This document shows, in pieces, positions 262 through 42,301 of a DNA stretch of 43,496 bases. The stretch's first letter is position 1. Each line of letters begins with the position of its first letter. The position numbers were made by a program, and so were the translations under genes. The notes under the pieces were generated by a model, which worked only from the letters and a program-made list of their open reading frames with translations, searched no databases and was not told the origin of the DNA. Origin of the DNA: Candidatus Altimarinota bacterium (GTDB lineage Bacteria > Patescibacteriota > Gracilibacteria > BD1-5 > UBA2023); assembly GCA_028685185.1 (NCBI GenBank), contig JAQUEK010000006.1:1-43496 (forward strand). The letters are read 5' to 3'.

Positions 262-1100
262 TGATATTAGATTGAAAAAAAATTGCAGAAAAAATTTATA
301 CGGAAATCAGGAAAAAAATTGCAGAGAATGAAAAAAAACCATGACTTTGAGTTATTCTTGTTTGAGATAATCCGGCTTCGATTTCATATATAAATCAGAA
401 AAGGAAATTTGCCGAACTTGTATGAATGAATTTCTATCTTAAGCATTTTGAGGAAAATACATCTGAAGATATTCTTATGGAAGAGATAGAAAGTCTTAAC
501 AATAGAGATGATATCGATTGATTCATAGTTCAGCTCCCTTTACCTAAATATATACATGAGCAAAGGGTAATAGATACGATAGATCCGAAAAAGGATGTAG
601 ATTGATTCACAAAGGAAAACATATGAAAATTATTCCTGTCCGAAGAGAACTGACTTATTTCCTGTACTCCGAAATGAATAAAGAAGCTTCTTGATGAATA
701 TGATATTGGCTTGAAATGAAAAAATGTCACAATAATCTGAAAAAGCAATATAGTCTGAAAACCTCTTTCATTGCTTTTCATAAACCATGCCGCAACAGTC
801 ACCGTATGTGACATATTCACGAAAAACCTGGATGAACATACATTAAAATCTGATATAGTCGTATCTGCCGCATGAGTTGCCAATCTTATAAATGAAAACA
901 TGATCAAGCCTTGAACCGTTGTGATTGATGTTGGATTCAATTTTGTCGATTGAAAAGTTATGTGAGATTGTGATTTCATAGGCCTGGAAAAAGATAATTA
1001 CATAACCCCTGTTCCTGGTTGAGTATGACCGATGACTGTCGCAATGCTTATAGAAAATACTTATTTGGCTTTCCTGAATAAAAATGAATGAACTAATTAA
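261..1100 (+). CDS. folD: FolD, bifunctional methylenetetrahydrofolate dehydrogenase / methenyltetrahydrofolate cyclohydrolase
   Basis: FolD interconverts 5,10-methylene-, methenyl- and 10-formyl-tetrahydrofolate in the cytoplasm. The 279-residue product has the normal family length. Visible signatures in order are LVGDNPAS, the catalytic YINQK (Tyr-x3-Lys), FIVQLPLPKY, DPKKDVDGF, SCTPKG, the nucleotide-binding GKSNIVGKPLS, and TPVPGGVGPMT near the C-terminus. Many of these conserved glycines are UGA codons, so a standard-code reading breaks the gene. The start ATG overlaps the upstream stop (TAATG), and the gene overlaps the next small ORF by 17 bases. FolD is one of the few one-carbon enzymes commonly kept by reduced genomes. 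With PurU at 8.8 kb it forms a minimal folate module. The identification is very secure. Confidence 0.97.
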
Positions 1101-1284
1101 GCTCCTTATTACCATTTTCCTTATAATCTCAGCTTTCTTCATTGGGGTCTGATTCAATGATTCACAAAAGGAGAAAAAAATTTCAGAATTGGAAAACAGA
1201 AGATATAAGGTTAATATAAATATCACCAAGGATAAGATAAATGTTGAAAAGCCTGAAAATATAGATGTTGTAATAAAAAAGTAG
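1084..1284 (+). CDS. Small N-terminally anchored protein, 66 aa
   Basis: A short ORF that begins inside the 3' end of folD in another frame. It starts with a hydrophobic segment (residues about 4-22, LIKLLITIFLIISAFFIG), followed by a charged, Lys/Glu-rich tail of about 40 residues. It looks like a signal-anchored small protein facing outward. There is no cysteine for lipidation. The stop TAG lies inside the palindrome that follows, so its last codons form the left arm of the putative terminator. No family was recognised. Translational coupling to folD is likely from the overlap. Confidence 0.6.
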
Positions 1285-1321: not shown

Positions 1322-1846
1322 TTATTTCAGGCTTTCCTTTATATCAATCGTGTTCTCCTGGATTTTTATCATATCGTCCTGCGAATAATCTATCGAATGG
1401 ACCAGTCCTGAGAAGAAATCCAAAAATCATGATTGTGTCGGTTGGATATATGTCAGCGAATCATCTATCCTTTTCAATACCTCTTTTTTGAAGTCCTCAT
1501 CCTTAAGGGCTCTCATATAATTTTCCTTAGTTACCCTTAATTCTTCAGGTAATATTTTATTTATCTCTTGAATCTCATCTATCTCTTCGATCTTTTCGAA
1601 AATCTCCCTTATCTCATCATTACCAAGTTTTTCTCAGGTTATTATGCGTGCAACGATACTCAATCTGATCAATCATCTTTCTATTATCGATTTCAGATGG
1701 GCTAACTTCTTATCCCTGTCTATTCTGGATATCAGCTTTTTCTTTTCATTTGAGAATTCAAGATTCCTTGCTATCTCATCTTTCCTTTCTTGTTCTGTTT
1801 TTTCTGAATAGCTTTCATAGCTGAAAACCTTTTTTTCTATTGTCAT
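1322..1846 (-). CDS. Unknown 174-aa helical protein
   Basis: A soluble protein rich in Lys, Glu and Ile, with long runs that look helical and coiled-coil-like over roughly residues 10-110. There is no signal peptide or membrane segment. The stop is TAA just after the palindrome at 1275-1314. The ATG at 1846 begins 22 bases downstream of the stop of the DMT-type transporter gene on the same strand, so the two probably share a transcript. I do not recognise a family. Confidence 0.7.
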
Positions 1847-23850: not shown

Positions 23851-23880
23851 AAACTCGGGGTTAATGACTCCGAGTTTTTT
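23851..23880 (+). terminator. Terminator after aspS
   Basis: AACTCGG pairs with CCGAGTT around a ttaatga-type loop, followed by T6, ten bases past the aspS stop. Confidence 0.88.
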
Positions 23881-23902
23881 AGAGATTAAATTATATAAAA
23901 AA

Positions 23903-24409
23903 ATGAAAAGTGTTGAAAATAATTGAAATTTTGTTCCATCAGAAAGAGATATGACTGGTTTAATTGAACATATTATTTATGAAATAGAAATGTTATATAT
24001 TTCTATGAAATGTTTTAAAAATAAGGAATTATCAATATATAATTCAATTTTTATAGAAAATTTTCTTATTCATGAAAGAAATTTAATGGATTTTTTTTGA
24101 AAAAAAACAAGATGCAAAAAAGATGGATGTTCTAAATGTTGAATTCAAGATGAAGATGATGCTTTATGTTTAGATTTTGGTTTTAATACTAAAAAATTTG
24201 ATTATAAGACTAAACAAAAAATAAATAAGAGTCTTTCACATATATCTTATTCAAGAAATAATTGAAATAATATATGGGACATAAAGGAAATGTGAGAACA
24301 AATGTTAATAATTAGTTGAGAATTTTTATTATTATTAAAAAGTAAAAGATATATAATTAATTGAGATAATAATTATCAAAGAATTAAAAAAATATTTATT
24401 AATTTTTAA
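23903..24409 (+). CDS. AT-rich 168-aa protein, possibly HEPN-like
   Basis: A helical protein whose middle segment reads NSIFIENFLIHERNLMDFF and later KINKSLSHISYSR, with DFGF and WDIKEM. This arrangement resembles a family of small HEPN-like helical proteins (long helix with HxRNLxDFF, then N-K-x-x-x-H-x-x-x-x-R). Family membership is inferred from pattern memory only. It is markedly more AT-rich than its neighbours, sits between two terminators, and is followed by a transposase gene, all signs of an accessory gene. It still uses UGA for Gly at about nine places, so it is adapted to this code. Confidence 0.65.
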
Positions 24410-24464: not shown

Positions 24465-24498
24465 AAAATCTGTTTAATTAAAATTAAACAGATTTTTT
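24465..24498 (+). terminator. Hairpin directly before the RAYT start codon
   Basis: AATCTGTTTAAT pairs with ATTAAACAGATT around a short A-rich loop, followed by T6. It ends one base before the transposase ATG. It can terminate the upstream gene and may insulate the transposase from read-through. Confidence 0.8.
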
Positions 24499-25146
24499 AT
24501 GTGAGAAAAATTCAAGAATAAATATAATACAGGTACAATAAGATTAAAGGGTTTCGATTATTCGGCGGATTGAGGATATTTCGTTACAATCTGTACGAAA
24601 AACAGAGAGGAATATTTCGGAAAGATCATTGATGGTAAGATGATTTTGAACGATGATTGAAGGATTATTGAAAATGAAATCATAAATACAGGGATTATCC
24701 GTGATAATGTGATAATTGATGAATATGTTGTTATGCCGGACCATTTTCATATGGTTTTGATGATTGGATATTCCCGTAATCATAGAGACGCGATTAATCG
24801 CGTCTCTACGATTACGGGAACAATGATAACGACGACGGGTGGTATTAATGGTTGAATTACATGAATATATAATCCAATGTTAAATCCAAATGTTTTATGA
24901 AATATAATCAGACAATTTAAATGAAAATGTACGTTTTTAATCAACAAATCCAAACAAAACAACCATTTCGCCTGGCAATCAAATTATTATGAACATATAA
25001 TTCGGGATGAAAATGAATTATATAGGATCAAAAAATATATAATAGAAAACCCGTTAAATTGGGAATCAAACAAAAAAAATGCCAGAAAATATATACATGT
25101 AGATGTGTTGCATGCATCGCATCTACATGATCAAAATTATTTATAA
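24499..25146 (+). CDS. REP-associated tyrosine transposase (RAYT, Y1_Tnp family), 215 aa
   Basis: A single-strand HUH endonuclease of the kind that moves palindromic REP elements. The product shows SADGGYFVTICTKNREEYFG, then EYVVMPDHFHMVLMIG with the HUH pair (His-Phe-His) at about residues 80-82. Further on are the NIIRQFKGKCT helix, FAWQSNYYEHIIRDENEL, and KKYIIENPLNW carrying the expected catalytic Tyr at about 183. Two palindromes lie within the reading frame, one right after the HUH motif (encoding HRDAINRVST) and one near the C-terminus. Both keep the frame open. The gene uses UGA as Gly. It looks intact, but whether the inserted segments allow activity is unknown. Confidence 0.92.
24771..24820. 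repeat. 50-base palindrome inside the RAYT gene
   Basis: A nearly perfect palindrome (one mismatched pair in 25). The outer arms are TTCCCGTAATC / GATTACGGGAA, the inner arms AGAGACGCG / CGCGTCTCT, around ATTAAT. The inner core matches the palindrome at 1275-1314 apart from one compensated pair and one centre mismatch. In single-stranded DNA it would form a long hairpin, the substrate type of RAYT enzymes. Confidence 0.9.
25096..25129. repeat. Second palindrome at the 3' end of the RAYT gene
   Basis: Arms CATGTAGATG and CATCTACATG enclose a TGCATGCA-containing centre. The GTAGATG...CATCTAC arms resemble the outer arms of the other two palindromes. It is fully inside the coding frame and encodes the C-terminal residues before the stop. 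Confidence 0.75.
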
Positions 25147-38819: not shown

Positions 38820-40475
38820 TTATATCGCGGAGTAGAGCAGTGGTAGCTCGCAAGGCTCATAACCTTGAGGTCGTAGGTTCGATTCCCACCTCCGCAACCA
38901 TAAAGGAATTAACACATTTTTACAATAATACAAAGGACTGTTTTCGGCTATCGGAAGCAGTTTTTTGTTGGTTAAAGTTTGGTTAGAGTTGATGTATTTG
39001 AGTTTGGTTAGAGTTTTTGGTTTAACTCTAACTTTCATACGGTCGATTATGGCTTCTATTTGAGAAGAAATCCACATTAAAAATATCTTATTTTTCTTCA
39101 AATCGCTTTGGTTAGAATAATAATTGATAGTCTTATCTTTTTTCATTTCTAATTCAAAAATTTCTTCTTTGTATTTATTATTAAGCATAGAATAATTTTC
39201 ATCTCCTATTTTTCACTCCATATATTTTTCTGTAAGGTTGATTTGTTTATTCTTCATTTCACTAATTCATACATCAATTTCTTTAAGTTGTGTATTATCT
39301 TGTATATTTTGATTATTTTTAAATTCATTCATTCCCTCCTTTATTTTTCTAATCATTTCAGAGCTTATTTGATATTTCTTAATTTGTTTTATTACCTGAA
39401 TTAATAAGCTTTTTTCCTGTAAAGGTTTTTCATTGCATTTTGTAGGAAAATTTGCGGATATTCCTCTACAACATCAGTAATATGTAAGATTTTTTGATTT
39501 TATGTGATATCAAGTTATGGATCTTCCGCAAGAACACTTAAAGGCTCATTGAAAAAGAAAATATTTCTGATTTCTCCTTCTTTTGTTATCTTGGTTTTTA
39601 AGATTAAGATATTTATTCCTGTTATCTTTTATGTTTTTGACTTTCAGAAATAGCTCTTCTGATATGATAGGTTCAATATCTAATTTGTATCTTTCTTCGA
39701 AAATTCCCGCAGTTTTAGCTCAAAAATATGGTAGTTCGTATGGTTTAAGATTCCATCTCATAGTTTTAAAGCCTGTAAATATCTCATGTCAAAGTATACT
39801 TTCTATAACTTTGTTGGTAATAGGCGTTCAATTTTGCCTTGTAAATCACTCTTTGATTAATTTTTCTGATAACGAAAGATAAGTATATTGTCAGCTCGAA
39901 TAAAGTTCAAATGTTCTCTTTATGAAATTTCATCTTTCAGGATCAATAATTGCTTTATTTTTTGCTATTTTAATATATCAGATAGGAATTACACTTCAAG
40001 AATGTTTTCATTCCATCATAGCACGTCTCATTCATAGTTTAGATTTAAAACTTAATTCTTCACTATATAATTGAGCTAAATTTCTTGAATTTCTTATTGA
40101 AAAATTTCCCATAGGTCCAGTCATTCAATAATTTTCTGTAATAGCCACGACCTGAACTCATCTCTTTTCGCAAAGATTTTCTAATGTGATAAAGTCGCTT
40201 CAATTTCTGCTTAATCTATCAAGTTTAAAAACAAGAAGATAATCGATTTTGTTTGTTGATATATAATTTAAAACTTCATTAAAGATTTTTCTTCAAATCT
40301 TCGGATTATATTTAATACTCCCTTTGAATGCAGAGTGTTTCTCTTCAAATTCTTTTAAAATATCAATACCCTGCTCTTGTGAATATCTCCTAATCTGAAA
40401 TATCTGCTCCTTAATACTCATTTCTGTTTGAGTATGTGCTCACGAAATACGAGCATAAGTTATTGCTGTTTTCAT
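38820..40475 (-). CDS. Large serine recombinase, 551 aa, C-terminus antisense to tRNA-fMet
   Basis: A site-specific integrase/excisionase of the large serine family. The N-terminal resolvase domain starts MKTAITYARISG with the nucleophilic Ser, then IKEQIFQIRRYSQEQGIDIL and LLVFKLDRLSRNGSDF with catalytic Arg residues. A recombinase domain (about 160-300, GFTRQNGTPITNKVIESIL) and a zinc ribbon (FKCSCGRSITGYH, then YGCCRG and a further Cys) follow, then a Lys/Glu-rich coiled coil. The last 45 residues are encoded antisense to the tRNA terminator and the whole initiator tRNA (for example GYEPCELPLLYSAI), so the true C-terminus was probably replaced on integration. Its start lies within the end of the upstream recombinase gene. 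Confidence 0.9.
38826..38900 (+). tRNA. Initiator tRNA-fMet (anticodon CAU)
   Basis: It shows the C1-A72 mismatch of bacterial initiators (CGCGGAG with CTCCGCA), D-arm GAGCAGTGGTAGCTC, anticodon loop CTCATAA on a short CAAGG/CCTTG stem, T-loop TTCGATT and ACCA end. The whole gene lies antisense within the 3' end of the serine recombinase reading frame. Confidence 0.96.
38936..38967 (+). terminator. Hairpin terminator downstream of the initiator tRNA
   Basis: An ACTG-TTTTC arm pairs imperfectly with GGAAGCAGT around ggctatc, followed by T6. It lies 36 bases after the tRNA CCA end, so it probably ends the tRNA transcript. It is inside the antisense recombinase frame. Confidence 0.6.
38967..39034. 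repeat. Cluster of short direct and inverted repeats near the element end
   Basis: GTTTGGTTAGAGTT occurs at 38977-38990 and again at 39002-39015. A degenerate copy (GTTGGTTAAAGTTT) precedes them, and an inverted copy (GGTTTAACTCTAAC) follows at about 39021-39034. They lie in the 3' end of the recombinase gene, a plausible place for recombinase-binding or attachment sites. Confidence 0.55.
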
Positions 40476-42301
40476 AATGATGATTTGTTATGATTGTAGA
40501 CAAATTGAAATTCTCAAAGAAGCTTCACTTTTAAAAGCTGTTTTTGATATCATCATTCAGTTTTTCTATCTTTTGGATGTCTATATCTGTTTTCTTCGCT
40601 TTTTTCTTCATCAAGGACTATTTCATTCAGAAGAATATCCACTACATCCTTTTTTATATCTTTTCAAATATCTTTGTATCTTTGTATTATTTCATATGTT
40701 CTTTCTATATATATTTTAAGGTTTGCCTCAATCTTTTTTCCTTCTGCTTCAAGTAATTCTATTTCATCTTTAATATCTTTTATTTCTTTTTTTATTCAGG
40801 GAATTATATTAAACAACAAAATTTCGGTATTAGCGTTCATTTTATCATAAATGTTATTAACATTCACTAATTCAGTCTCTATCTTATCAAGTTTTCTTTC
40901 CTTACCAGCAAGCCTTATTTTATGTGATTTGATACCGTCATTTATTCTTACAAGTTCTTCTTTTTTTACTAAATCAAAAATAACTTCATATAATGGTCCT
41001 ATATAAATATATTTTATAATTTCCTTATAAATAAGATCATCGATTTGTTCTTCAAGAATTACTGATTTTCTATCACATATTAAAGAATTGGTTCTGGCAT
41101 TTTGACACATATATCTATATTTATTCCCATTTCATCATCTTTGACCTGTTATATCTCATCAGCACACACATTTAAGAACTCCTGAATATAAAGCTCAATC
41201 AAATACTCATACTTCTATTTTTCTATGTTGTCTGTCCATATTTTTCAGAAGAACACTATCATAAAGACTATCATCAATTATCCTTAATTTTGGAGTTTCA
41301 AAAATAAGTATATTCCTTCATTTCTTGATGTCTTTTGGTCTTTTATAGAAAGAATGCAATATTTTTAAATCATCTTCAAATTTTATATCTATAATTACAA
41401 ATCTTTTTCAATTATATCTAATTCTTTCCTTATTTAACAGTATTTTACTTATTGTCTTCTCATCTCTCGGTAAATAATAATGTTCATAAGATCTTTTTTT
41501 TCACCTATTCAGACTATCACACTCACTATTAAACTCTTTAAAAATTGTTTCAATTATATTTTTATGCTTATATCACTCATAATTAAGTTCAAAAATCCTT
41601 TTTATGACTTTCGCGTGAAATGGATTAACAATTATTTCACTTTTCTTGTCTCAATGTTTTTTTATTGTATATCAATACTGTATAGAGCTTCATCATAAAT
41701 AGGCATAAGCATTTCTGTTTATTACGAATAGTCCGTATTGTGTAGCCTTACTACTCTGTCTATCACTATAAAAGATGGATTCACTGCAAATCATTCTGAA
41801 AAAATACATTCATGCAGCCGAATCGACTATGTTTTCTTTGATAGATATGAACTTATATCACAGTTTATATAATTTTTCTACTTTGATAAAGTCTTCTCAA
41901 TTTCGGGCCATTCTGGAAATATCGAAAAATATAACTCATCAATACTTTCTTTGGAGACTTTGACTATCTTTTTCCATCAAGCTAATCATTGTTTCAAATT
42001 GAACTCTTTTTCAGCTTACATATCAAGATTTTTCCTCTTCAAATATATCACTTAATTTTAAATTATTATCTCGTGCATACTTTTTTATTGCCTTATTTTG
42101 GGCATCGAAAGTTAATTCCGAATTTCCAGCTTTTGATTGTCTTGTATATCAGAGATATTCAAGAGGCTTTGAATTTTCACCTGCTTCGATATAATCATCC
42201 AATTCTTCTTCATCAACTTCGACATTATCAAATTCTCAATCATTTCATTCTTCATTCTCATCATCTTCGAAATCTATGTAGTCCGCTTTTAAATTACTCA
42301 T
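40460..42301 (-). CDS. Second large serine recombinase, 613 aa
   Basis: An acidic N-terminal extension of about 50 residues precedes LEYLGYTRQSKAGNSELTF with the nucleophilic Ser, DAQNKAIKKYARDNN, and VIFFDISRMARNGEDF with catalytic Arg. A recombinase domain (KSEIIVNPFHAKVIKRIFEL, then ISKILLNKERIRYNG) follows, with a zinc ribbon (LYSGVLKCVCGGDITGQRGG, then YRYMCQNARTNSLICDR) and a long coiled coil (about 430-540). It overlaps the next recombinase gene by 16 bases and begins within the end of the small membrane protein gene. Conserved glycines are UGA. The pair may act together, as in elements that need two recombinases. Confidence 0.9.

Follow-up and report, generated by a model that had tools for sequence, protein, structure and literature searches.

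A REPtron very probably lies in the 43,496-nt stretch of DNA analyzed here (the window, which is contig C2 of a 1.17-Mb genome): a HUH/Y1 nuclease resembling the TnpA_REP (RAYT) proteins of subclass 2.4, together with GTAG-footed REP hairpins, in a genome that uses genetic code 25. One REP would have inserted into the gene of the enzyme itself, a second one would have become coding by read-through at the 3' end of that gene, and further copies would serve as terminators at gene ends.

The RAYT gene and its product

The genes in the window are read through with TGA as glycine (code 25, Gracilibacteria/SR1 type). Under this code, the RAYT gene (24499-25146, forward strand), of which the genome has one copy, encodes 215 amino acids with seven TGA glycines. 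The protein has a DHFH motif (ending at 24750), FAWQ, and the tyrosine motif KKYIIENP, and in an alignment of 37 sequences H82, H84, Q160, Y180, and N184 were invariant. A profile search matched it to PF01797 (6e-8), above the family cutoff. The match to NCBIfam NF047646 (REP_Tyr_transpos; 60 bits, E = 2.3e-16) is below the cutoff of 80, which is a naming threshold and not a biological defining feature, and it comes in two stretches, split around the region of the insert described below. Judged by its sequence, the protein has the HUH motif and the single catalytic tyrosine that make up a Y1 transposase domain. The AlphaFold2 model (mean pLDDT, 79) has a confident core, but residues 96 to 117, which include the insert, are below 50, and the C-terminal tail is of low confidence as well. 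By fold, the best solved structures were IS608 TnpA and the REP-bound TnpA_REP 4er8 (TM of 0.62 by target length for the latter), and by sequence 4er8 was the only solved structure matched. Two of the three motifs (DHFH, WQ, and YIIENP) are one residue off the published NH[IFV]H, WQ, and YIxNNP of subclass 2.4, which speaks against a REPtron of this kind; close homologues of the window RAYT have NH[IVL]H and YIxxNP.

No REP was found on the 5' side of the gene. Instead, a non-REP hairpin with 15 perfect base pairs and a T-run behind it lies there, just upstream of the RAYT start (24465-24496), and is likely the terminator of the gene at 23864-24409. Near the contig end, two large ORFs on the reverse strand that overlap by 16 nt (38820-40475 and 40460-42301) have, by eye, the look of serine recombinases and are possibly part of a mobile element.

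Two palindromes within the RAYT ORF

The first palindrome spans 50 nt at 24771-24820 (24 of 25 pairs; RNA fold z = -11). It is in frame under code 25 within the ORF, as an earlier note on this DNA had described, and starts about 20 nt after DHFH; the position behind the HUH motif given there was right, and "immediately after" is in fact a distance of 20 nt. The palindrome consists of a 28-nt double-foot REP core (GTAG...CTAC) at 24782-24809, ATAGAGACGCGATTAATCGCGTCTCTAC, and 11-nt complementary arms, TTCCCGTAATC and GATTACGGGAA. The core is of the GATTAATC type and encodes HRDAINRVST, at the site of the loop that leads from the HUH strand to helix C. It is one base away from the perfect REP GTAGAGACGCGATTAATCGCGTCTCTAC, the left foot being mutated from G to A (ATAG). 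This foot is a point against the REPtron, since tested relatives cut single-stranded GTAG-footed hairpins and foot mutations block or reduce this cleavage (PMC8266576). The 11-nt arms had no other copy anywhere in the genome that would support nested insertion into a known second palindrome.

The second palindrome (25096-25129; fold z = -4.7) likewise keeps the frame, as had been noted before, and encodes most of the C-terminal tail, HVDVLHASHLHD. Its REP (25099-25126, GTAGATGTGTTGCATGCATCGCATCTAC) is of a GTTGCATGCAAC-like type. Since homologous proteins end about where this tail starts and their genes carry a REP 10 to 43 nt downstream of the stop, the palindrome is best explained, from this comparison, by an ORF that now extends into the usual 3'-flanking REP. 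Absorption of REP copies into coding sequence, proposed in the earlier note, is thus seen within the RAYT gene.

Origin of the RAYT gene

TGA accounts for 7 of the 18 glycine codons of the RAYT gene but for a fraction of 0.78 genome-wide (p = 4e-4), a hint that the gene came from a standard-code donor. The RAYT and its internal REP might have come recently from a standard-code bacterium, with the dispersed REPs as older relics of an earlier RAYT. We regard this as a real, if tentative, possibility; it bears on which events came first and does not conflict with the REPtron explanation. It agrees with the TGA share, with an internal core that equals the cross-phylum consensus while the dispersed copies have diverged, and with a 3' REP of another type, but low TGA shares are also found in other code-25 RAYTs. 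Moreover, whereas a quick tree placed the window RAYT among standard-code Patescibacteria, a clade test favored a tree that unites all code-25 RAYTs, and tree-based horizontal transfer was therefore dropped.

REPs inside other RAYT genes

A REP between HUH and Y was found in 39 of the 71 RAYT genes scanned, and the insert of the window gene sits in frame in the same slot. The view that palindromes within a RAYT ORF are unusual could not be upheld, since REPs are common inside RAYT genes and were published in 2018 as a hallmark of subclass 2.4, according to the main text of PMC6006769. Two of the three reading frames of a REP are open (VETRLIASL and xRDAINRVST), and of the internal REPs, 24 were read in frame 0 and 17 in frame 1, with none in the frame that would turn the foot into a TAG stop.

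If a gene had both an internal and a flanking REP, the two were of one type in 17 of 19 cases, with a mean similarity of 0.85 versus 0.30 after shuffling (0 of 2,000 shuffles). Only L111 and the window gene clearly break this rule, the latter with an insert of the GATTAATC type and a GTTGCATGCAAC-like 3' REP, and the mismatch in the window gene is a further point against the REPtron. The type matching in 19 genes goes beyond the main text of PMC6006769, as do the association of REPs with the RAYT in 77 genomes and the cross-phylum identity of third positions described below; the supplementary Figure S10 of that paper may already show the type matching. If the internal REP were a maintained reference copy of the enzyme's substrate and not a tolerated passenger, it would keep the type of the flanking and dispersed REPs, with its DNA conserved across phyla, and enzyme and substrate would travel together in horizontal transfer or the protein would regulate its own gene by binding the copy. 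We consider such a role unlikely. Nevertheless, the type match and the cross-phylum identity of the insert make the question of passenger or function testable.

The REP family in the genome

For a census, the whole genome was rebuilt from its stretches, and 28-mers were counted if one or both feet matched GTAG or CTAC exactly and 12 or more of the 14 pairs could form. The genome contained 12, compared with 0 in three Markov controls. The GTAG foot was found 11 times, versus a mean of 0.33 for 96 two-GC feet and 2 for the next best, and was the only two-GC foot enriched. The count of REPs excludes four GTAG-footed palindromes that lie in paralogous Cys-rich genes, because all of them may go back to a single ancestral event. 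This leaves about 10 REPs, one of them 29 nt long, of which about 8 are outside the RAYT gene. REPs thus lie beside the RAYT, and related REPs are dispersed in the genome. Five have the GATTAATC core: the RAYT insert, the copy at 1281 in the window, and those at C3 210251, C4 273479, and C6 84997. In the three stretches searched against Rfam, the REPs had no match. None of the dispersed copies is identical to the internal REP, and thus none is a recent copy of it. Their divergence from the internal REP and the low number of copies (only about 10, 5 with the GATTAATC core) argue against the REPtron. The earlier note had reported one distant copy, that at 1281, and had suggested that the transposase spreads a palindrome family. 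Indeed, the copy at 1281 is not the only one, and a REP family exists whose presence tracks that of the RAYT; that the window RAYT itself moved the copies is what we infer.

The Cys-rich genes belong to a multicopy family without a Pfam match that has in-frame GTAG-footed palindromes at one site. In this genome, these palindromes are at C1 90523 and 92899, C3 303487, and C7 68580, outside the window (EYYPI-SSRDAINRIAT). Data on the palindrome site came also from the homologues L292, L314, L324-L326, L329, and L330, and most of the homologues examined are without the GTAG-footed palindromes. In genome G076, from another family of the order, the peptide ISRDKALPYLY goes with a AAGGCATTGCCTT-type REP, and about 11 of the 23 REPs found there sit in the Cys-rich family; duplication of genes may thus be another way in which REPs spread. 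Other inserts at the same site lengthen it from 20 residues to between 38 and 60 (L308, L316-L323, L328, L331, L333, and L334), and some of these have other palindromes or peptides that resemble repeats (PHPNPLPMGEGI, RRDVIPAKAGIYQ), as might be expected of a site where several repeat families tend to insert.

REP copies at gene ends

The copy at 1281-1308 (GTAGATACGTGATTAATCGCGTATCTAC) has A6/T6 flanks and is part of a palindrome (1268-1321) between the folD operon and a convergent gene (1322-1846, reverse strand), whose stop is 13 nt away. Two of its pairs differ from the internal core: a G-C pair is replaced by T-A, which is compensatory, and a C-G pair by the wobble T-G; the first of these bears out the compensated copy reported before. 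The palindrome folds with -26.8 kcal/mol (z = -10 on the forward and -9 on the reverse strand), and 7 of 8 nucleotides are T on both sides. A stable hairpin, a T-tract directly after it, and a gene end are thus all present, and the copy is likely a two-way intrinsic terminator for the folD operon and the convergent gene. A consensus terminator scan made no call at 1268-1321, which counts against the REPtron; perhaps the long perfect stem, A/T tracts included, exceeds the limits of the scanner. The GTAG foot of the same copy provides the TAG stop (1282-1284) of a putative gene for 66 amino acids (1084-1284, forward strand) that overlaps the end of folD and whose open frame ends in the foot.

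Outside the RAYT gene, seven of the eight copies are no more than 20 nt from a gene 3' end, compared with 3.7% of random intergenic places. A T-tract, defined as at least six T in eight on one side, was present in 6 of these 8 but in only 8 of 123 exact REPs in other genomes (p = 1e-5), a difference that may be due in part to composition, since the genome is AT rich and the gene calls are crude (background, 8.5%). As anatomy, a REP family with some terminator-like copies is well supported. The use of REPs as terminators, also put forward in the earlier note, holds to this extent, and we infer termination itself from the anatomy.

Could the gene-end hairpins be ordinary intrinsic terminators, as an AT-rich genome might contain, that are unrelated to the RAYT and similar to REPs only by coincidence? 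The commonest palindromes of the genome are indeed A/T-flanked hairpins (AAAA foot, 43), and the copies differ from each other as well as from the internal REP. However, no enriched two-GC foot other than GTAG was found, and four gene-end copies match the insert in the GATTAATC core and in the exact length of 28 nt, which makes a chance resemblance very improbable.

REPs and RAYTs in other genomes

The exact 28-mer was found in at least 118 stretches from at least seven phyla, with hosts in the Cyanobacteria, Bacteroidota, Patescibacteria, Gammaproteobacteria, Spirochaetia, Abditibacteria, and Calditrichota; many of these are MAGs, and single cases may be contamination. Six of the 124 exact copies listed are inside RAYT ORFs (four between HUH and Y and two before HUH), and a similar RAYT is encoded in 31 of the 44 listed genomes with the exact 28-mer. 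Among 77 genomes of the window's order, a RAYT (E up to 1e-6) was found in 12 and palindromes of the GTAGAGAY...RTCTCTAC type were found in 17. Palindromes were present in 10 of the 12 genomes with a RAYT but in only 7 of the 65 others (Fisher p = 1e-6, with genomes that are related and not fully independent and with copies inside RAYT genes counted too), which supports an association of REPs with the RAYT throughout the order. The seven genomes that have palindromes without a RAYT at this threshold (G021, G025, G026, G035, G038, G062, and G069) possibly contain relics of a lost RAYT; the copy in G026 is of the GATTAATC type.

All eight third positions of the insert are identical to those of the inserts in RAYTs L238, L239, and L241 (Bacteroidota and Calditrichota), compared with 28 to 32 of 62 to 66 in the rest of the gene; reinsertion, conversion, or selection could each be the cause. 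Decayed inserts in the cyanobacterial L243 and L244 keep a DAMNRVST-like peptide with 9 of 14 Watson-Crick pairs, as might be expected if the segment were ordinary protein and the hairpin a by-product of a conserved peptide, but this explanation is scarcely credible and was rejected in view of the identity at the DNA level, the quite different REPs that fill the same slot in two frames, and the 32 of 71 homologues without a REP between HUH and Y.

A probable REPtron and its known relatives

The REPtron explanation would account for these data as follows. By analogy with the tested relatives, the enzyme most likely moves or copies a GTAG-footed hairpin that it recognizes in single-stranded DNA. 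One copy would have inserted into the gene of the enzyme itself, at the disordered loop that links the HUH strand to helix C, where it may be tolerated because two of the three REP frames are open and the loop is outside the predicted core. With loss of the ancestral stop, the usual 3'-flanking REP would have been read into. Other copies would have landed just behind gene ends, and those with T-tracts may have become intrinsic terminators and would have drifted by paired changes that preserve the hairpin. This adds a recoded CPR genome to the range of the self-inserted REPtron and, for one REP family, documents which members are absorbed into coding sequence and which are terminator-like.

The closest known systems are the TnpA_REP proteins of subclass 2.4 (RAYT group 4), for which the main text of Quentin et al. 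2018 (PMC6006769) describes long, double-foot REPs and, as a unique and predominant feature, in-frame REPs in the own gene, generally between HuH and Y. The window gene shares with them the double-foot REPs (GT[AG]G...C[TC]AC, here 28-mers), the WQ motif, the in-frame REP between HuH and Y in the variable region from beta-3 to helix C, and a scattered occurrence over phyla. The differences from that description are a host among the code-25 CPR bacteria, DHFH and YIIENP as motifs, a 3' REP that is translated, and a coupling of gene-end copies to T-tracts. The GTAG REPs of Di Nocera et al. 2013 (PMC3733652), which occur at gene ends and inside genes, are likewise palindromes of 20 to 40 nt with a GTAG foot that are mostly behind gene ends, sometimes inside genes, and sometimes nested in other palindromes; in contrast, the genome studied here has about 10 copies, with a foot on both sides. 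Rickettsia palindromic elements also lie in frame inside protein genes, but their ends are CGTC, a class of repeats for which no dedicated transposase is known (PMC3733652), whereas the host gene in the window is the presumed transposase itself. The window gene is thus a well-documented further example of a kind already described.
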